Below are positions 356 through 35,407 of a stretch of 35,538 bases of DNA, one piece after another. The notes below the pieces were generated by a model, which saw nothing but the letters and a program-made list of their open reading frames with translations, had not been told where the DNA came from and ran no database searches. Source of the stretch: a virus. Within the stretch, counting starts at the first letter, position 1; every line of letters starts with the position of its first letter. Position numbers and translations under genes: made by a program. The stretch lies in IMG/VR virus record IMGVR_UViG_3300032163_000064, positions 1 to 35,538 of that record; one strand, given 5' to 3'.

Positions 356-553
356 TCACTGTAACCGTCTCTCCAGCAAGGCACTGGAGACGACGAGGCG
401 CACCCATATGGCCCAATTCCGGTGTCCAACCGATTCCAGCGTGTTACAAACTACAGCGGAATCTGCGTCTTCCAGCCCAGGATTGGCGAGGAACCAGGCG
501 ATTCCCTCAGGGCAGGCGTAGCTTTCCCTTAAAAGCTTCATGGTTATTTTCAT
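356..553 (-). CDS. LRV-family paralogue, N-terminal module only (65 aa)
   Basis: The protein carries the family's N-terminal module: MKIT, then ACPEGIAWFLA, then a DxxxVC..LE segment and a final W.IW. It ends after a short unrelated tail (SSALLERRLQ) before any LRV repeat begins. Full members at 4768, 5324, 6312 and 32980 continue with 2-5 repeats, so this copy is a truncated or minimal version. Its ATG overlaps the stop of the DUF5131 gene (ATGA) and has an AAGGGAAAG ribosome site. Either the module alone is functional or this is a decaying copy. Function unknown. Confidence 0.8.
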   Translation of the reverse strand: MKITMKLLRESYACPEGIAWFLANPGLEDADSAVVCNTLESVGHRNWAIWVRLVVSSALLERRLQ

Positions 554-2776: not shown

Positions 2777-3803
2777 GCTTCACAATAAACGCGAACCCCT
2801 CAAACTTTCCGTCTTCCATCGCTGTGTAAACATCTTCAGCCTCGGCGGCAGAAATGGATTTAAGCTTTTCGGGGTAATAATCGTATCCGTGTTTGAGGTT
2901 GGCCATGCAAACCCGCTCGATTTTTTTGAACTGCTGGGGTGTGATGGAGCCGGGGGGAATGGTTGCCTCCTCCGGCGCGGGTTTCACGTTCGTTTTTTCC
3001 ATGACTGCCGTTTTTAGCCCGGCCACACCCTTGCCACCGTCTTTATCCGCCACCTGAAAAATGGTTTCGAGGGTCGCTTCGCCATCGCGGATGGCTGTCG
3101 CAAATCCTCGCAGGATGGCCAGTTGTTCGAGTCCGATATCCTCAATCCTGGCCACGCCCAGGGTGTTGCAAATCATTTCCGGGGATGCTCCGAATTTAAG
3201 CAGGTGCGCCAACGCATCCGCCCGCCGGGTGGATAGCGTTTTCGCGTCCCCCATCGCCACCTGCCGCGCCGCCGCGAACAGGTCAGCCCAAAAGGCCTTC
3301 GGGATTCCTTTCAGGATGGCGTTCCGCATGGCAATAGAACAGGCCGCCGCGCCGGTGACCCCTATCATATCCAACCCGAATCGCCGCCCGAATTTATTTA
3401 CAATCCGGCGGCGGACTTCATACGTCACGGAAACGTTTTTTTCAAGGTCATGGAAAATCCCCTGCGCCGTGATAAATTCGCCGTCTTCCGCCACAACACG
3501 GGCCGCATACCTGTTATTGCCCCACGCGGAAGCGAGAATTTCCGCAAACCGGCTCGATGGCCCTTCAACCACCTTCCCGTCCCGCGGGAGTGCGTAACCA
3601 CATTCGGACGCTATAGCCTCGGTCAGCGTTACCATGTTCAGAGCCTCGGCGCGGAATGTTTTGAGTGAGCGCGGATGTTTTTTCGCCGTTGTGATTTGTA
3701 TATCGTATTCGGCTTTCGCTATTACGGCAAGCGGGCGACTATCCACTATCTCATAAGGAGTTTCCGTTTCCGTTACCGCTGTCATTTCTGTTTCCTTTTC
3801 CAT
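2766..3803 (-). CDS. Probable phage recombination partner of YqaJ (ssDNA-annealing candidate), 345 aa
   Basis: The start ATG overlaps the exonuclease stop (TAATG), so the two are translationally coupled. The central part (about residues 45-180) holds SLKTFRAEALNMVTL, GPSSRFAEILASAWGNNRY, FHDLEKNVSVTYEVRRRI and MRNAILKGIPKAFW. I recognise this block from proteins next to phage exonucleases but cannot name a Pfam family with certainty. The C-terminal part contains a PGSITPQQFKKIERVC helix pair. Exonuclease plus annealing protein is the standard phage recombination pair (Red/RecET-like), so an SSAP-like role is inferred from position. It could instead be an accessory recombination protein. Confidence 0.7.
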   Translation of the reverse strand: MEKETEMTAVTETETPYEIVDSRPLAVIAKAEYDIQITTAKKHPRSLKTFRAEALNMVTLTEAIASECGYALPRDGKVVEGPSSRFAEILASAWGNNRYAARVVAEDGEFITAQGIFHDLEKNVSVTYEVRRRIVNKFGRRFGLDMIGVTGAAACSIAMRNAILKGIPKAFWADLFAAARQVAMGDAKTLSTRRADALAHLLKFGASPEMICNTLGVARIEDIGLEQLAILRGFATAIRDGEATLETIFQVADKDGGKGVAGLKTAVMEKTNVKPAPEEATIPPGSITPQQFKKIERVCMANLKHGYDYYPEKLKSISAAEAEDVYTAMEDGKFEGFAFIVKHGK

Positions 3804-4771
3804 TATTCTCTTTCCTTCCATAAAAATCGGCGAGCACCGGGTTTGGTTACTGTAAATTTTTGGATGAGTTCGGCGGACACTCCCGATGCTTTGGCCACCG
3901 CCTCCCAATCCGTTTTTTGACTATCCTTTGTGTTTTTCCACGTTGCCCGGTATTGCAAACCGTCCAGCCCGTCAGCATCGCCGATGAACTCTTTCAGTAA
4001 CGTGCTATAGCGAGATTCCTCCGCCTCCGCCCCTGCCAAGTTCTCCCGCGCCAGCGCATACATTTCCAATAGTTCGTTACCAGCGTTGTCGGCGGATTTG
4101 AGTTTTTCCACGTTTCGCGGAAACCGCCATGCAATATAATCAGCAGCGCTCCGGGAGCCGTCCAGCACGGGTTCCACACCCTCAATGATGTGCCGCTGCC
4201 ACCACGCCGCCGCTTTTTCCAACAAAGACGCCTCCAGTTCCGCGTCTCGGTGTATACGGTATTCCGCGTAATCGGAACCGCCGAACAGAACGGCGACATC
4301 CCATGACGACTTGCCCGTTACGGCCATGTACCATATACATTGGAGCAGATAATTTTGGGGGATATCATCGCTCCCAGGCTCACCCCATTTTGCCATGGTA
4401 TACCAGCCCGCTGTTTTTGCTTCGACGCCAACCTCGGCAGTCAAGGCGTCGGGGGAGCCGATTGCGCATGGCATTGTGGGGTGGCGATATATCAGCGGTT
4501 CCGTTGTTTCCATCAGCACCAGACCGTGGTTCTCCCCGTACCGCTCCAGCACCATGCGTTCCAACCGCCGCCCCCACGCCATTTGCGGGGTCATGGGTTT
4601 TTCGGGCATTTCCGTTGTTTTCGACAGCCATACATCCAGTTCCGTTGCCCAGGATGACAGCCCCAGTATGGCGGCAATATCACTCCCGCCGATGCCGCTC
4701 CGGCGTTCGGCCAGCCATTTAGGCCGTTGCGATTCGGTTATTTTCGGTATTGTCAAAATTCCGTGGTTCAT
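3803..4771 (-). CDS. YqaJ-like viral recombinase (lambda-exonuclease fold), 322 aa
   Basis: The PD-(D/E)XK exonuclease motifs are visible in order: GIGGSDIAAILG (26-37), GRRLE (67-71), GSPDAL (105-110), VEAKTA (116-121, catalytic E-x-K) and the Q-x3-Y pair (Q144, Y148). The usual length is about 200-320 aa, so this is complete. The enzyme should degrade the 5' strand of dsDNA ends to leave 3' ssDNA for annealing. The C-terminal 100 residues are helical, with a region typical of YqaJ proteins in phages. The gene overlaps the upstream LRV paralogue (ATGA) and the downstream partner (TAATG), with AAGGGA as ribosome site. Confidence 0.93.
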   Translation of the reverse strand: MNHGILTIPKITESQRPKWLAERRSGIGGSDIAAILGLSSWATELDVWLSKTTEMPEKPMTPQMAWGRRLERMVLERYGENHGLVLMETTEPLIYRHPTMPCAIGSPDALTAEVGVEAKTAGWYTMAKWGEPGSDDIPQNYLLQCIWYMAVTGKSSWDVAVLFGGSDYAEYRIHRDAELEASLLEKAAAWWQRHIIEGVEPVLDGSRSAADYIAWRFPRNVEKLKSADNAGNELLEMYALARENLAGAEAEESRYSTLLKEFIGDADGLDGLQYRATWKNTKDSQKTDWEAVAKASGVSAELIQKFTVTKPGARRFLWKERE

Positions 4772-5229
4772 TTTTTCCCTTTCCCCGTTAAAGTTTTTTT
4801 TGCCGCCTCGCGGATATGCCGTTCCAAGTTCCGGGCCAGGGTGCTAACGTAACGATTCTCGTCCGTTGCCAGCGTAGCCAGCACTTCGAGGGAAGTGTTG
4901 AGGTTTTTGGCTACGGCGGCGCGGGCGTACTCATTCCCATCCCCGGCCAGCCGCGCAAGCACGGCGGAGGGTGTGTTGGGGTTCGCCGCGACCGCCTCGC
5001 GGACGTCCCCGCCCTCGTCCTCGGCCAGCCGCGCAAGCACTTCGGGGGTGCTGGCGTTGCTGGCTATGGTTTCCCGGAGCCAGAAACTCCAGTTACAACG
5101 CGCATCCTCTTCCAGCACCTCGCAAACCACAGCGTAATCCTCGCCGTCTAGGTCGGGGCGGGCTAGGAACCATGCGATACCCTCCGGGCATACATTTATT
5201 TCTTTTAAAAACTGGGGTGTTATTTTCAT
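4768..5229 (-). CDS. LRV-repeat paralogue, 153 aa
   Basis: The N-terminal module MKITPQFLKEINVCPEGIAWF is followed by DLDGEDYAVVCEVLEE and W-FWL. About four LRV-type repeats of roughly 24 residues come next. Their recurring core is VAxNxNTxxxVLARLAxDxxxxVR, as in AANPNTPSAVLARLAGDGNE and KNLNTSLEVLATLATDENRY. LRV repeats form curved all-helical solenoids that usually bind proteins; the partner is unknown. The start at 5229 overlaps the stop of a 32-codon remnant (ATGA) and has GGGAAAAAG upstream. The basic end (KKTLTGKGKK) is unlike the other copies. It is the closest paralogue to the recombination genes. Confidence 0.88.
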   Translation of the reverse strand: MKITPQFLKEINVCPEGIAWFLARPDLDGEDYAVVCEVLEEDARCNWSFWLRETIASNASTPEVLARLAEDEGGDVREAVAANPNTPSAVLARLAGDGNEYARAAVAKNLNTSLEVLATLATDENRYVSTLARNLERHIREAAKKTLTGKGKK

Positions 5230-5324
5230 TTCTTTTTCCCTTTTGAGGCCGAAAAATAGCGAAACCAGTCTATACCTACTATGCATGTGTCGATTTTCCG
5301 CAAAAACCCTATGGTAATTTTCAT
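5226..5324 (-). CDS. 32-aa mini-ORF, remnant of an LRV paralogue
   Basis: The frame reads MKITIGFLRKIDTC, then IVGIDWFR, then a lysine-rich tail and TGA. This matches the first 22 positions of the family's N-terminal module (MKITxxFLxKIxxCxxGIxWF) and then diverges. It is coupled on both sides: its ATG overlaps the upstream paralogue's TAA (TAATG) and its TGA overlaps the downstream paralogue's ATG (ATGA). The likeliest origin is deletion between repeated copies. It may still be translated, at least to keep coupling of the flanking genes. Confidence 0.6.
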   Translation of the reverse strand: MKITIGFLRKIDTCIVGIDWFRYFSASKGKKK

Positions 5325-5388
5325 TACCCCTGCTCCGCTTGAGGCCGAAAAATATAGGTGGGAATGGAAACGCTAATTGTGGATACGG
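5321..5388. repeat. Dispersed repeat A, copy 1 (coding)
   Basis: This is a near-identical partner of 6154-6223. In this place it is read as the last part of an LRV paralogue and also contains its TAA stop and the overlapping ATG of the 32-aa remnant. The conversion of an intergenic segment into coding sequence points to unequal recombination between paralogues. Confidence 0.85.
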
Positions 5389-5731
5389 TTTCCGCCGCTG
5401 CAATAGTAGCCTTTGCCGCCCTGCGGACAAACCAATCCCCATCCCCGGCCAGCGTAGCCAGCACGGATAGGGGCGTGTTGCGGTTCCCCGCGACCGCCTC
5501 GCGGACAGCCCAATCCCCATCCACGGAAAGCCGCTCCAAAACGGCGGGGGATGTGTTGTTGCAGACCATGGCGCGGCGCAACCACAAGCTCCAACCCCCT
5601 AGCCTATCCCCCTCCAGAGCGGCGCACACGGTCACATAATCTGCTCCGTCTAGGTCGGGCCGGGCGCGGAACCAGTCGATTCCGGCTTCACAAGCCTTGA
5701 TTTTTCTCAAAAACTCGCAAGTTATTTTCAT
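5324..5731 (-). CDS. LRV-repeat paralogue, 135 aa
   Basis: The N-terminal module (MKITCEFLRKIKACEAGIDW) is followed by about two LRV repeats (CNNTSPAVLERLSVDGDWAV; GNRNTPLSVLATLAGDGDWF). The last 25 codons (ETVSTISVSIPTYIFRPQAE) derive from a 68-bp segment that is intergenic after the 6312 paralogue (6154-6223). This copy therefore gained a new C-terminus by recombination. The first 92 bp at its 5' end, including the ribosome site TAGGGAGATAAA, match those of the 6312 gene except at two bases. The start lies 1 nt after the preceding stop. Confidence 0.87.
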   Translation of the reverse strand: MKITCEFLRKIKACEAGIDWFRARPDLDGADYVTVCAALEGDRLGGWSLWLRRAMVCNNTSPAVLERLSVDGDWAVREAVAGNRNTPLSVLATLAGDGDWFVRRAAKATIAAAETVSTISVSIPTYIFRPQAEQG

Positions 5732-5746
5732 TTTATCTCCCTAAAA
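5655..5746. repeat. Dispersed repeat B (LRV 5' end), copy 1
   Basis: These 92 bp match 6589-6680 with two adjacent differences. The repeat covers the ribosome site and the first 25-30 codons of the 5324 and 6312 paralogues. So high a DNA identity implies recent duplication or gene conversion. Confidence 0.85.
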
Positions 5747-5945
5747 GTTTCCTCGCAGGTACTTCCGGCGGGAGCCACAAGGCCCACTCCCGGAGCCATG
5801 CGCTCCAACCCGGATGCCCATCCGCTTCCAGTGCGGCACAGACAATTTTGTAATCCTCTCCTTCCAGTTCGGGCCGGGCGCGGAACCAGTCGAGTCCCCT
5901 AGGGCAAGCCTTGAGTTTTTCCAAATATTCAAGTTTTGTTTTCAT
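5733..5945 (-). CDS. LRV-family paralogue, N-terminal module only (70 aa)
   Basis: The module MKTKLEYLEKLKACPRGLDWF, PELEGEDYKIVCAALEADGH and W-AWLREW is present. The protein then ends in a short Pro/Leu tail (LWLPPEVPARKLLGR) with no LRV repeat. Its middle 89 bp (5801-5889) match 6521-6609 of the next copy with four differences, exactly 720 bp away. This looks like a mosaic or truncated duplicate. It is tightly packed: the stop is 1 nt before the next ATG, and the small membrane-protein gene ends 2 nt upstream of its start. Like the 356-553 copy, it suggests that the N-module can stand alone. Confidence 0.8.
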   Translation of the reverse strand: MKTKLEYLEKLKACPRGLDWFRARPELEGEDYKIVCAALEADGHPGWSAWLREWALWLPPEVPARKLLGR

Positions 5946-5947
5946 TG

Positions 5948-6070
5948 TTAATGGAATACCCGATAGATGAGATAGAGGATTATCCCCGCGCCGCCCATAA
6001 CGATTATGGCGTTCATCAGTGCGTTGAATTCCCGTTGTTCATCCCGCAGTTTGTTCTGTTTCCATGTCAT
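5948..6070 (-). CDS. Small single-pass membrane protein, 40 aa
   Basis: The protein starts MTWKQNKLRDEQREFNALMN and continues into one hydrophobic helix (AIIVMGGAGIILYLIYRVF) that runs almost to the C-terminus. The ATG at 6070 has GGAG 8 nt upstream. In-frame ATGs at 6085 and 6157 would extend it, but they read through repeat-derived DNA, so the short form is preferred. It lies inside the LRV cluster. The topology is a cytoplasmic charged N-terminus with an anchored tail, and no functional signature is visible. Confidence 0.6.
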   Translation of the reverse strand: MTWKQNKLRDEQREFNALMNAIIVMGGAGIILYLIYRVFH

Positions 6071-6153
6071 TTTTTTATTCTCCATTTTTATTGTTTTTAG
6101 AGGGCCGGGGTTTGGGAGGGAGTTCCCGCCCCCCGGCTTGGTGATGGAGCAGG

Positions 6154-6223
6154 TCATTACCCCTGCTCCACTTGAGGCCGAAAAATATAGGCGGGAGTGG
6201 AAACGCTCGAATTGTGGATACGG
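6154..6223. repeat. Dispersed repeat A, copy 2 (intergenic)
   Basis: This 70-bp segment matches 5321-5388 with three substitutions and one 2-nt gap. Here it is intergenic, between the 6312 paralogue and the small membrane protein. In the other copy it encodes the C-terminus of the 5324 paralogue. Its right edge carries TTGTGGATACGG (6212-6223), which is repeated in inverted form at 6270-6281 and could form a hairpin in the intergenic transcript. The rest of 6224-6311 holds no gene that I can support. Confidence 0.85.
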
Positions 6224-6311
6224 GGGTTCCGCCCGAAGGACTGCTCCCGCCTAATGTTTTTATCTTTATCCGTATCCACAACGTGCATCATATGTATTCC
6301 CGCCGTCTTTG

Positions 6312-6665
6312 TCAATTATTTTTTCTTTTTGCAATAGTGGCCGTTGCCGCCTCGCGGACGTACCTGTCCATGTCCATAGTGAGTTTCACAAGCACTGCGG
6401 GTGACGTGTTGAGGTTGCGGGCTACTGCCAAGCGCACATCCCCATCAACGTAATCAGCCATCCGCGCCAGTACGGCTGGTGGAGTATCGCCGTGGCGGGC
6501 TATGGTTTCCAGGAGCCAGCCGCTCCAACCCGGATGCCCATCCGCCTCCAGTGTCACACAGACAATTTTGTAATCCTCTCCTTCCAGTTCGGGCCGGGCG
6601 CGGAACCAGGTGATTCCGGCTTCACAAGCCTTGATTTTTCTCAAAAACTCGCAAGTTATTTTCAT
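6312..6665 (-). CDS. LRV-repeat paralogue, 117 aa
   Basis: The N-module (MKITCEFLRKIKACEAGITW; PELEGEDYKIVCVTLEADGH; WSGWLLET) is followed by two to three LRV repeats: RHGDTPPAVLARMADYVDGD, ARNLNTSPAVLVKLTMDMDR and a final capping helix REAATATIAKRKNN. It is the first LRV gene in the operon. The ribosome site TAGGGAGATAAA is shared base for base with the 5324 copy. The solenoid fold is known for LRV proteins. The N-module looks like a conserved cap, and its function is unknown. Confidence 0.88.
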   Translation of the reverse strand: MKITCEFLRKIKACEAGITWFRARPELEGEDYKIVCVTLEADGHPGWSGWLLETIARHGDTPPAVLARMADYVDGDVRLAVARNLNTSPAVLVKLTMDMDRYVREAATATIAKRKNN

Positions 6666-6680
6666 TTTATCTCCCTAAAA
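6589..6680. repeat. Dispersed repeat B (LRV 5' end), copy 2
   Basis: This is the partner of 5655-5746 and contains the start of the 6312 paralogue. Upstream of it, 6521-6609 matches 5801-5889 (four differences in 89 bp). The 6312 gene therefore shares its 5' end with one neighbour and its middle with another, a mosaic pattern. Confidence 0.85.
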
Positions 6681-13361: not shown

Positions 13362-13534
13362 TTGACGAAAAACCGCAAGGGGAAATCATCCGGGGCGGAT
13401 TTCACGCGCTGGCAAAGAAGCTGGAAAAATCAACACGGCATATGCGCCGCATGGTGATTGATGATAAATTGCCGGGAGTGGTGGCTTATCAGCCATACCC
13501 CGGCGCACATTATCAGTTATTCAAAATAAAATAG
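13355..13534 (+). CDS. Small unknown protein after portal, 59 aa
   Basis: An excellent ribosome site (GGAGGGGAA) precedes an ATG that overlaps the portal end. The protein starts MVVDEKPQGEIIRGGFHALA, is basic in the middle (KKLEKSTRHMRRMVIDDK) and ends PGAHYQLFKIK. No family is recognised. Its 3' end is partly duplicated in the spacer between the two CCNNG arrays (13625-13655), where HYLILKIA can be read. It is the last rightward gene before the counter-oriented cassette. It could be a head-assembly accessory. Confidence 0.75.
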   Translation: MVVDEKPQGEIIRGGFHALAKKLEKSTRHMRRMVIDDKLPGVVAYQPYPGAHYQLFKIK

Positions 13535-13624
13535 CCTTGCCCTGCCTTGCCCTGCCTTGCCGCGCCTTGCCCGGCCATGCCTCGCCTTGCCCTGCCATGC
13601 CGGGCCGCGCCCTGCCGTGCCGTG
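13535..13624. repeat. CCNNG pentamer array 1 (18 units)
   Basis: Eighteen contiguous 5-bp units all obey CC-N-N-G, with variable middle bases (TT, CT, GC, CG, AT, TC, GG, GT). The array begins right after the TAG of the 59-aa gene. A period of half a helical turn and strict conservation of C1, C2 and G5 with free N3-N4 are unlike a simple slippage repeat. Confidence 0.95.
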
Positions 13625-13655
13625 GGAAATACACATTATCTGATATTAAAAATAG

Positions 13656-13760
13656 CCTCGCCTTGCCAAGCTTTGCCCAGCCATGCCCCGCCATGCCGCG
13701 CCTTGCCTCGCCCCGCCGGGCCATGCCTCGCCCTGCCTTGCCTTGCCCGGCCTTGCCGCG
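13656..13760. repeat. CCNNG pentamer array 2 (21 units)
   Basis: Twenty-one units; 20 obey CCNNG and the exception is CTTTG at 13671. It is preceded by a 31-bp spacer (13625-13655) that resembles the sequence before array 1 (CACATTATC, AAAATAG), so leader and array were duplicated as one unit. It ends 17 bp before the stop of the leftward gene at 13778. Confidence 0.95.
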
Positions 13761-32813: not shown

Positions 32814-32983
32814 CAATCCGCCCCCAGCGGCACGAAGGCATCGTATCCAGCCTGGAATTCAGCCACCTCAACAGCAATTCCTTGCGTCCACCATGCCTTA
32901 TCAATGGATGCTTCCCAGCACATTTGACATAGGTCATCCGGCCAATTGTCATCATTTTCAATTTTGCAATTAGGGCAAGTCAT
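32813..32983 (-). CDS. Zinc-ribbon-like small protein, 56 aa
   Basis: MTCPNCKIENDDNWPDDLCQ, MCWEASIDK holds two CxxC pairs (C3/C6 and C19/C22), an obvious zinc knuckle. The rest is acidic and helical (AVEVAEFQAGYDAFVP). The ATG overlaps the LRV gene stop (ATGA) and has GAGGA. The longer frame up to 33046 is not needed. Role unknown; such small zinc proteins are common in early phage operons. Confidence 0.75.
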   Translation of the reverse strand: MTCPNCKIENDDNWPDDLCQMCWEASIDKAWWTQGIAVEVAEFQAGYDAFVPLGAD

Positions 32984-33510
32984 TTTGCATCCTCTTTTCC
33001 TCTTTCGCATGATGGTCGCCGTTTCGCGGACTGGCGGACGCACCATTTCTTATCCCCGATTAACCATACCAGCGCGCCGGAGGGCGTGTTGCGGTTACAG
33101 GCCACGGCGGCGCGGACGTGCTTGTACTTGTCCTTTGCCAGCACGGCAAGCACGGCGGGTGGGGTGTTGCGGTTCCCCGCGACAGCCGTCCGGACGTCTG
33201 CGAACGCATCTTTAACTAGCCATTTCAGCACTTCGGGAGAGGTGTTGGTGTTCTCCGCTACAGCGATGCGGATGTCTGTGTCCGCGTTTTTGGCTAGCCG
33301 AGCCAGTGCTTTACGGGAGGTGTTACTGTTGCCCGCCACGCCCCAACGGAGCCAAACGCTCCAGTGGCTATACCCAGCCCTATCAAGCGCGGCGCACACT
33401 ATGGAATAATCCGCGCCATCCAATTCAGGATGAGCGTGGAACCAAATACGTCCTTTACGTCCGTCTGAGCAAGTATATATTTTCCTCAAGAATTTCTTGG
33501 TTATTTTCAT
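32980..33510 (-). CDS. LRV-repeat paralogue, distal copy, 176 aa
   Basis: The N-module is MKITKKFLRKIYTCSDGRKG with PELDGADYSIVCAALDRAGY and WSVWL; it has a 3-residue insertion (RKG). Four or five LRV repeats follow: NSNTSRKALARLAKNADTDI, ENTNTSPEVLKWLVKDAFAD, GNRNTPPAVLAVLAKDKYKH and CNRNTPSGALVWLIGDKKW. It is the longest member and lies in the same operon but about 10 kb (through the junction) from the cluster at 4768-6665. The AGGAG site is strong. It ends in a basic, disordered tail (KRRPSCERGKEDAK). Confidence 0.88.
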   Translation of the reverse strand: MKITKKFLRKIYTCSDGRKGRIWFHAHPELDGADYSIVCAALDRAGYSHWSVWLRWGVAGNSNTSRKALARLAKNADTDIRIAVAENTNTSPEVLKWLVKDAFADVRTAVAGNRNTPPAVLAVLAKDKYKHVRAAVACNRNTPSGALVWLIGDKKWCVRQSAKRRPSCERGKEDAK

Positions 33511-33683
33511 TTTTCGGTCTCCTCTTTTCTTTTATTGTAGCTTTCCTCATTCCACGCTCGCAATGTGGCCCAAGCGGCTTCCTGCGCCGCCTTTGCCGCC
33601 GCCGCCAACGCCGCCGCCGCCAACGCCGCCGCCGTCACGTCCAGCTGTTCTATTACCCGAAACAACGCAATTAATGTAATCAT
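33507..33683 (-). CDS. Ala-rich coiled small protein, 58 aa
   Basis: MITLIALFRVIEQLDVTAAA leads into an alanine-rich stretch encoded by repeated GCC-type codons (AALAAAALAAAAKAAQEAAW), then a charged end. It forms one long helix. The DNA of the Ala stretch is a small tandem repeat (33590-33636), so its length may vary between relatives. The ATG at 33683 has AAAGGA; overlaps both neighbours. Unknown function. Confidence 0.65.
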   Translation of the reverse strand: MITLIALFRVIEQLDVTAAALAAAALAAAAKAAQEAAWATLRAWNEESYNKRKEETEK

Positions 33684-33811
33684 TCTATTTCCTTTCCAAC
33701 TGTTGAATTTTCGCACTCATCCCGCAGGTTGCATTTCTCGCAATCCATCCGGCACTCATCCGGGTACGGGTCTGCCAGATGGTTATATGTCGCGTCTACA
33801 TAATCGCCCAT
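33680..33811 (-). CDS. Cys-rich mini-protein, 43 aa
   Basis: A perfect GGAGG lies 7 nt before the ATG. The protein starts MGDYVDATYNHLADPYPDEC and has four cysteines in the pattern C-x3-C-x2-C-x5-C, a plausible zinc site. It is acidic. Its stop overlaps the next ATG (ATGA) and its start lies inside the DUF7220-like gene's end (29-nt overlap). It is too short for usual ORF cut-offs. Unknown function. Confidence 0.72.
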   Translation of the reverse strand: MGDYVDATYNHLADPYPDECRMDCEKCNLRDECENSTVGKEIE

Positions 33812-33989
33812 TGAATATCCTCCTCCAAAAATAAGACCTTGCCACCGATACCAGCGTGTATATCATAACGATGTTCATCGACTGCGCCGCGCCGGTATCA
33901 AATAACCACATCGTTAGAAACCAACTAATCACTATCCCGCTTGCCGTGTTGACAGCCGCCTCGATGGCGGATTCCCTATGTGTCTGCAT
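33783..33989 (-). CDS. DUF7220-like two-helix membrane protein, 68 aa
   Basis: MQTHRESAIEAAVNTASGIV, ISWFLTMWLF, NIVMIYTLVSVARSYFWRRI match the small phage membrane family that I know as DUF7220 (start with QTR/H-ES--EA--N---G, two membrane helices, and a VS-ARSY--RR-F end). Two membrane helices are seen. AAGGTGA precedes the ATG. Function of the family is not known. It overlaps Dam (14 nt). Confidence 0.8.
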   Translation of the reverse strand: MQTHRESAIEAAVNTASGIVISWFLTMWLFDTGAAQSMNIVMIYTLVSVARSYFWRRIFNGRLCRRDI

Positions 33990-35025
33990 TTTTATCACCT
34001 TGGTTAAAAAGTGGCAGACCGGTGGTCATGCCCATGCAATGCGGGGACAGCCATAATCGCTCGGTGTGGTGATTATTGTTTACCCCTCCCCCCAAATTTG
34101 AATAACCCCCATTCGCTTTCCATTCAATTTTACTCCATCCAGCGGATTCAAGTGTTGGGTATTCGCCTTCGTATCCGGCGCACACGATGCGGTAATCAGG
34201 GTTATCGCCGCGCGGCAAGCACCATTTTTCCACGTCCAGCGCGACGGTCATGGAATCGTGGTGATAAATGGAATCATCACGCGATTCATGGCTGTACGGC
34301 GGGTCGAAAAATATCCCCACTAATCCATTTCTATTTTGCCAATTCCCGCCGCAAACACGCTCCCATGAACCGCAAACAACTTTCACATATCGCAATCGTT
34401 CGGACAATTCCCGGAACCATTCATACGTCCGCGCATTATACGGGTCTTGTACGCCCTTATTGCACGTTAGATGCGGTCTCTGCCCGCCGCTGTTTACGCC
34501 CATATTGTCCGCTAGATGCGGTCTCTGCCCGCCGCTGTTTACGCCCTGATTGCGCGCTAGATGCGGTCTCTTCCCGCCGCTGTTTACGCCCTGATTGCGC
34601 GCTAGATGCGGTCTCGCATTTGCACGCGTCAACCCAGTCCCTATCCAGCTGGATGCCGCCCATATCCAATATCCGGCCATTTTTGAATCAAACCATGCCG
34701 GGTCGGATTCCAATCCCCTCAACAATGCGCCTTCGTTGGCGATTAGAAATTTCCGCCGGGCATTTAAATCAGCGTGGTTTATCGGCCAATCGCAGAACTT
34801 CGCCACCGCATCGGGGTCAGCCTGTAACGCCCGCCAGACGTTACAAATAAAACCATCCTTATCATTCACGATTTCATACGTTTTATCGTGATGCTCCGGC
34901 CTGTTTAGCAATACCGCTCCGCTACCGAAAAACGGCTCTATATATTGGTTGACCTCCCCCAGCGCGTTCCAGACCTCATGCGCTATCGTTGATTTGCCGC
35001 CGAAATATGGAAATGGCGCCTTCAT
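33976..35025 (-). CDS. Dam-type adenine-N6 DNA methyltransferase (D12 class) with RPHL repeats, 349 aa
   Basis: The N-terminal MKAPFPYFGGKS (motif I-like, SAM site), YIEPFFGSGAVLL (29-40) and the catalytic DPPYS (241-245, in GIFFDPPYSHES) are all present. Between them, at about 138-192, lies a tandem insert of a 15-residue unit (RPHLARNQGVNSGG-like) repeated 3.6 times. It corresponds to the 45-bp DNA repeats at 34456-34616. Such RPHL repeats are known in Dam-like phage enzymes, where they probably lie at the target-recognition region. Methylation should shield phage DNA. ATGA overlap with the 56-aa gene upstream. Confidence 0.92.
   Translation of the reverse strand: MKAPFPYFGGKSTIAHEVWNALGEVNQYIEPFFGSGAVLLNRPEHHDKTYEIVNDKDGFICNVWRALQADPDAVAKFCDWPINHADLNARRKFLIANEGALLRGLESDPAWFDSKMAGYWIWAASSWIGTGLTRANARPHLARNQGVNSGGKRPHLARNQGVNSGGQRPHLADNMGVNSGGQRPHLTCNKGVQDPYNARTYEWFRELSERLRYVKVVCGSWERVCGGNWQNRNGLVGIFFDPPYSHESRDDSIYHHDSMTVALDVEKWCLPRGDNPDYRIVCAGYEGEYPTLESAGWSKIEWKANGGYSNLGGGVNNNHHTERLWLSPHCMGMTTGLPLFNQGDKNADT
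34456..34616. repeat. 45-bp in-frame tandem repeat inside the Dam gene
   Basis: The word AGATGCGGTCTC recurs at 34469, 34514, 34559 and 34604, a period of exactly 45 bp (15 codons). Copies 2-4 differ at a few bases only. In-frame copy-number change could alter the enzyme without a frameshift. Confidence 0.92.
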
Positions 35026-35192
35026 CGCCGCGCCTGGCTGGTTAAATGATACCCGGCACACTCGGCGCAGTAGTAGTACCGGCATTCCGATGACCCGCCA
35101 CCACGTTTGTGGTCTGATGGTCGCCTTCGCCGCGTGTGTGCCAGCGCATTGTGCGCATCTTTGGGGTTACTATAAATATATTTGCCACACAT
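35022..35192 (-). CDS. Cys/His-containing small basic protein, 56 aa
   Basis: The start overlaps the Gly-rich stop (TAATG) and the stop overlaps Dam's ATG (ATGA). The protein starts MCGKYIYSNPKDAHNALAHT, is basic (RRRRPSDHKRGG) and ends with YYYCAECAGYHLTSQARR. The C-x2-C ... YHLTS end is a recurrent small zinc-binding motif in phage proteins. It is too short for most gene finders but well supported by couplings. Function unknown; possibly nucleic-acid binding. Confidence 0.78.
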   Translation of the reverse strand: MCGKYIYSNPKDAHNALAHTRRRRPSDHKRGGGSSECRYYYCAECAGYHLTSQARR

Positions 35193-35407
35193 TAAAAACC
35201 ATCCCCGTCCCCGGAACCGGCTCCGGAACCGTCCCCGTCCCCGTAACCATCCCCGGCTCCGGAACCGTCCCCGGAACCGTAACCGTAACCGTAACCGTAA
35301 CCGGCTCCGGAACCGCCACCGTAACCGGCTCTGGAACCGGAACCGGAACCGTGACCGCCACCGTAACCGGTTGTTTGCGAATCATCCCCTATAAATATTT
35401 GGCCCAT
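35192..35407 (-). CDS. Gly-rich low-complexity protein, 71 aa
   Basis: The start MGQIFIGDDSQTTG is followed by about 55 residues of Gly with Tyr, Ser, Asp and Ala at alternate sites (GYGYGYGYGS, GDGDGSGAG). Similar Gly-Tyr/Asp small proteins occur in other phages. The GGAGG site lies 5 nt before the ATG at 35407. Its DNA is a degenerate CCGTAA/CCGGAA hexamer-like repeat (35209-35360), so length variation is likely. It overlaps the preceding gene end by 19 nt. Role unknown. Confidence 0.75.
   Translation of the reverse strand: MGQIFIGDDSQTTGYGGGHGSGSGSRAGYGGGSGAGYGYGYGYGSGDGSGAGDGYGDGDGSGAGSGDGDGF

Follow-up and report, generated by a model that had tools for sequence, protein, structure and literature searches.

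Recombining copies of a helical module with LRV repeats in one phage genome: a possible family of expandable protein-binding adaptors

Why would one phage encode the same N-terminal module at seven places, followed by LRV repeats in some and by none in others? The window, that is the whole stretch of DNA analysed here, comprises the 35,538 bp of a virus record. All seven loci listed in a preliminary description of this sequence are open reading frames of the minus strand. The module has about 58 residues, and its profile, built from the six full copies themselves, matches exactly seven places in the 35.5-kb genome, with E values of 1e-32 to 1e-36 for the full copies and of 3e-8 for copy C, which is truncated.

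The copies differ in what follows the module. Copy A (356..553, 65 aa; profile E 3e-32) consists of the module only, with no LRV in any downstream frame. Copy B (4768..5229, 153 aa) joins the module to three LRV repeats and a C-terminal helix; its start overlaps the end of C, and its end overlaps the start of the YqaJ gene. In copy C (5226..5324) the first ~22 module residues (model positions 1–22) run into the leader sequence of copy B. Copies D (5324..5731, 135 aa) and F (6312..6665, 117 aa) each carry two LRV repeats, the module of F being a mosaic, and copy G (32980..33510, 176 aa, pI 10) has a module with a 3-residue insertion followed by four. Copy E (5733..5945, 70 aa) ends without LRV in a short tail, WLPPEVPARKLL, which looks like a broken LRV start. 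The repeats of B, D, F and G are recognised by the LRV model PF01816 at E values of 4e-13, 1.5e-8, 1.3e-7 and 3.7e-17 (49.2, 34.9, 32.0 and 61.9 bits), all above the Pfam cut-off of 21.6 bits. Counted from the regular 26-residue spacing, the numbers for A, C, D and E (0, 0, 2 and 0) agree with the preliminary description, but those for B, F and G had been set at 4, 2–3 and 4–5, where we count 3, 2 and 4. The repeat-less copies A, C and E may be debris. DNA mimicry by acidity was considered and rejected, as the pI ranges from 5.0 to 10.1 across the copies, with no common acidic character.

The genome carries a 127-bp direct terminal repeat, consistent with a complete genome that is circular or permuted. 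Late genes (terminase, capsid, tape measure) are on the plus strand, and a minus-strand block that spans both record ends contains YqaJ exonuclease, DUF5131, RusA and methyltransferase genes. In a circular or permuted genome, which the terminal repeat allows, the block with copy G would join the other minus-strand block in one continuous leftward unit. All seven module loci lie within the block containing the YqaJ exonuclease gene, which fits the earlier placement of the family in an early operon. This YqaJ-type recombination exonuclease (3803..4771, minus strand; PF09588, E 6e-27) is encoded directly downstream of copy B and marks the early region; it is also a candidate for the machinery of segment exchange between the copies. 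A D12 adenine methyltransferase gene (33976–35085, minus strand) contains 3.7 copies of an in-protein 45-bp tandem repeat at 34450–34615, with RPHLARNQGVNSGG-type units. A 69-residue alanine-rich ORF (33507–33716, minus strand) overlaps the start of copy G, and its AAALAAAALAAAAK run recalls the alanine-rich C-terminal parts of the Imm5-type relatives described below. Dense short tandem repeats of the CCGGAA and GCCTTGCCCT types lie at 35205–35370, near the record end, and at 13534–13758, between late genes.

The DNA-level repeats reported earlier between the copies are real, and so is the exchange of segments deduced from them. Copies D and F are 72% identical over 351 bp, with the ribosome binding site and the first ~45 nt identical, and E and F are 83% identical over 161 bp (E side 5788–5946). 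The segment 6154–6233 (minus strand), now the leader of the gene 5948–6157, is 90% identical over 80 bp to 5321–5396, the stretch where the 3' end of D adjoins C, and by its sequence it is probably the 3' tail of an additional, lost D-like copy. Copy F is a clean mosaic that switches from D-like to E-like and back to D-like. Its D-like tract (6614..6680, minus strand) covers the ribosome binding site and the first 52 nt of the gene, where 19/19 informative gene sites are D-like, and its E-like tract (6509..6588, minus strand) has 26 of 27 informative sites E-like (maxchi2 27.5, reached in none of 20,000 permutations, P<5e-5). We take copy C, where the beginning of a module is joined to the leader of B, for a further scar of recombination.

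In the tree, the six full modules of the window fall in a clade of their own, with every relative outside it (support 0.989). The expansion thus took place in this lineage, and the view of one family amplified within this phage holds. The preliminary description had also proposed copy counts in relatives as a check: 26 of 29 contigs with module-bearing relatives have one module gene, and three (G002, G020 and G038) have two in tandem. Seven places is the highest number seen in the comparison. The module is absent from 16 contigs with related terminases (about 36–50% identity; several of these contigs are fragments).

Does the array need selection for diversity to explain it? A recombination-active phage could simply duplicate one small accessory gene wherever leaders are repeated, then convert and break the copies; the expansion would in that case be mostly non-adaptive. 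Three of the seven loci are truncated or repeat-less (A, C and E), the 3' remnant at 6154–6233 adds to them, leader sequence is repeated at the junctions, the YqaJ recombinase gene is next door, and most relatives manage with one copy. Pure decay, however, would not leave four full-length copies with open frames and dN/dS below 1, and a compact genome of 35 kb has kept the array. Pairwise dN/dS of the module is 0.16–0.72, with every estimable value below 1, although these values are rough because of conversion between copies and near-saturated synonymous sites; as a rough reading, they point to constraint with no measurable positive selection. We consider the mostly non-adaptive explanation somewhat unlikely, while taking it seriously.

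The module alone is modelled by AlphaFold2 as a compact fold of four helices and short strands (pLDDT 96), and in full-length B (pLDDT 88) the helices continue from the module into the repeats. The predicted solenoid of B resembles the LRV protein 1LRV (Z 8.5, rmsd 3.4, 100 residues aligned) and the alphaRep designed binders (Z 8.9), values within the range that helical repeats give without kinship. The earlier suggestion of an LRV solenoid of the protein-binder type is supported. Against a binding role counts that not all LRV solenoids have a known one. A comparison of the module alone with 14 PDB chains gave no strong fold match (best Z 3.4), which does not by itself prove a new fold, and a search of the PDB by sequence gave no match. 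The best viral model match was A0A8S5VC97, with a TM score of 0.80 but an E value of 0.04.

Our preferred reading, to which we give a probability of roughly 45%, is that these genes encode early, accessory, protein-binding adaptors, each with a solenoid of LRV (HEAT-like) repeats that can grow behind an unvarying cap, and that the seven loci are amplified, recombining copies. Duplication of the copies within the lineage and exchange of segments between them are shown by the sequence. The cap, as predicted, would be an independently folding helical domain of ~58 residues that runs into the solenoid, and it may either nucleate the solenoid or dock on a constant partner. The repeat face would bind a host protein, or one from a competing element, with repeat number and copy number as the variables that are easiest to change. 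Such binding might serve to counter host defences, as suggested earlier, but this is a guess: no defence family matches, and the scans gave no close relative that might show selection.

Is the module confined to this phage? It had been called undescribed, which stands insofar as no Pfam model matches it, but the YdhT family NF007410 and PHROG 38757 have an N-terminus homologous to it. The window modules have no convincing match in NCBIfam or PHROGs: the curated YdhT model NF007410 matches no window protein at E<=1, and PHROG 38757 matches copy A only, weakly (E 0.056). In contrast, PHROG 38757 matches the relatives L084 and L085 at 4e-33 and 3e-20, and NF007410 matches 3 of the 13 modules of alignment A9 (best E 8e-32). 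Comparison of profiles with hhalign joins the window module to the Imm5-type modules at E 2.3e-15 and to the YdhT-type modules at 1.9e-12. A profile made from the window copies only, searched against 23,016 ORFs from 126 loci, returned module proteins of other phages as its top 37 matches; the first other ORF had an E value of 0.19. Weak tblastn matches (T4-like, Gordonia and one gut clone) were rejected as relatives, since they looked like chance: those in Gordonia fall in the terminase gene, and the T4-like and gut-clone ORFs score E 0.28 and 0.19 with the window-only profile.

The profile search against phage genomes proposed in the preliminary description was productive, with homologues in other phages, in the Methanosarcina virus MetMV and in YdhT. 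Searches with the module alignment and with relatives yielded two viral contigs and then MetMV and Edwardsiella phage GF-2. Further carriers are the Komagataeibacter phages phiKX1 and phiKX2, one E. coli record and one human gut phage. The Imm5-type form of the module was found in 24 viral contigs, two of them already known from the earlier searches. Close relatives of the LRV-type copies were found neither in the viral contigs (scans with B, F, G and module alignments) nor in the genome contigs (both scans), and a search of the phage collection with these copies gave only an LRV protein of a Moorella phage, which has no evident module. Elsewhere, a Deinococcus psychrotolerans plasmid (NZ_CP034187.1) has 40 LRV-like places, and a HEAT/LRV gene of Allomeiothermus (NC_014213.1) lies beside VWA and MoxR genes. 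No publication describing the module was found in the literature searched.

In the relatives, the cap is constant while the number and kind of repeats vary. The module caps at least four repeat types: LRV in this phage, an Imm5-like segment with alanine-rich repeats, IGSSG/AGFSG repeats, and the IKAGGGI-type repeats of a human gut phage protein. The Imm5-type relatives (L084, L085, MetMV and L125–L147) share with the window proteins the homologous N-module, a repeat-rich C-terminal part, an early neighbourhood and occasional tandem copies. They differ in carrying an Imm5-like helical segment and then alanine-rich runs of the YAAYAADAA type where LRV stands here, with a similar tail wherever the frame is complete. 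The YdhT family (E. coli YdhT, GF-2 ORF-55, phiKX1 ydhT) is likewise similar in its module, its early-region place in phages and its variable repeat number, but its C-terminal part consists of 9-residue repeats with a 27-bp DNA period, found in Edwardsiella and Komagataeibacter phages and in E. coli YdhT (27-bp arrays in L097 and L105), and it is single-copy in the records searched. Komagataeibacter-type prophages have anywhere from about 2 to 11 of these 9-residue units. A laboratory evolution study reported a 54-bp in-frame deletion at 782,372 in ydhT_1 of Serratia symbiotica, a gene inside a mitomycin-inducible prophage region (771,733, 48 kb) (PMC12505973). If ydhT_1 shares the architecture of its relatives, this deletion would equal two 27-bp units. 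One prophage homologue (L109, from 3001 onward) has the usual leader and 9-residue repeats without the cap module, as if, judging from the sequence, the cap had been cut out.

The Imm5-like relatives raise another explanation for the array, in which tandem diverged copies would neutralise toxins, either those of abortive-infection systems or those made by competitors, a function proposed for Imm5-type proteins and polyimmunity loci. Many viral proteins have this module in front of an Imm5-like segment, and PF21805 (Imm5_like, cut-off 25 bits) matches two loci above its cut-off (L085, 34.0 bits; L084, 31.5 bits for the N-terminal 123 residues). Furthermore, tandem arrays of immunity proteins have been described as polyimmunity loci (PMC3482391), which resemble the array studied here in consisting of diverged paralogues in tandem. 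In this phage, by contrast, no immunity domain and no toxin partner was recognised: PF21805 has no match in the window, and PADLOC profiles, from a library that covers described systems, gave no defence-family match to the phage proteins. The immunity role of Imm5 is itself a prediction. We regard a polyimmunity-like function as improbable, and the adaptor with a constant cap and an LRV solenoid as the better account of these copies.

The kinship with YdhT points in yet another direction, namely to a role in housekeeping or assembly, as a scaffold or as a redox or metal accessory. The E. coli gene row reads ydhY, ydhV, ydhW, ydhX, a cytochrome gene and, last, ydhT, which places YdhT with ferredoxin-like and oxidoreductase genes, and Cys14 of the module is near-invariant in the alignment. 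However, E. coli YdhT is the exception that lacks Cys14, no redox genes were recognised near the phage copies, and the common context is the phage early region. We therefore hold this role to be very unlikely. Nearly all complete E. coli genomes, 5,367 out of 5,426, have the chromosomal ydhT region; it also occurs in CP025887.1, the E. coli record named among the carriers above, which was deposited as 'Escherichia phage 503046' and may be largely host DNA.

Gene neighbourhoods in the relatives are those of an early, accessory gene, which speaks for the adaptor reading. Neighbouring genes include replication initiation, DnaB/DnaC-like, RusA, methyltransferase and anti-restriction-like genes. 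In Edwardsiella phage GF-2 the module gene stands after a putative N antiterminator gene and ahead of CIII and a recombination gene; in phiKX1 it comes after the antirepressor gene.

A broader proposal is that phages in general, from those of Komagataeibacter and Edwardsiella to a methanogen virus, use one helical cap with interchangeable, fast-expanding solenoids (LRV, alanine-rich Imm5-like, IGSSG, IKAGGGI), so that slippage, duplication and recombination would allow them to refit a protein that binds the host. We put it forward as unlikely on present evidence. The parts are already catalogued, as LRV proteins, YdhT (named yet uncharacterised) and the PHROG family. Compared with other LRV proteins, such as the Azotobacter protein of 1LRV, the copies described here are alike in repeat sequence and predicted solenoid, but their N-terminal part is a phage module, and several recombining copies occur in one phage. 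As far as our searches reach, what appears to be new is the link of these groups through one module, together with the recombining array at seven places.

One shared domain ties several groups of 'hypothetical' phage proteins to a core E. coli gene without an assigned function. It also offers a testable design rule, in which the cap is constant and the repeats are replaceable. Should the repeats bind host proteins, then which repeats a phage carries, and how many, would be a record of the targets it has needed to bind.
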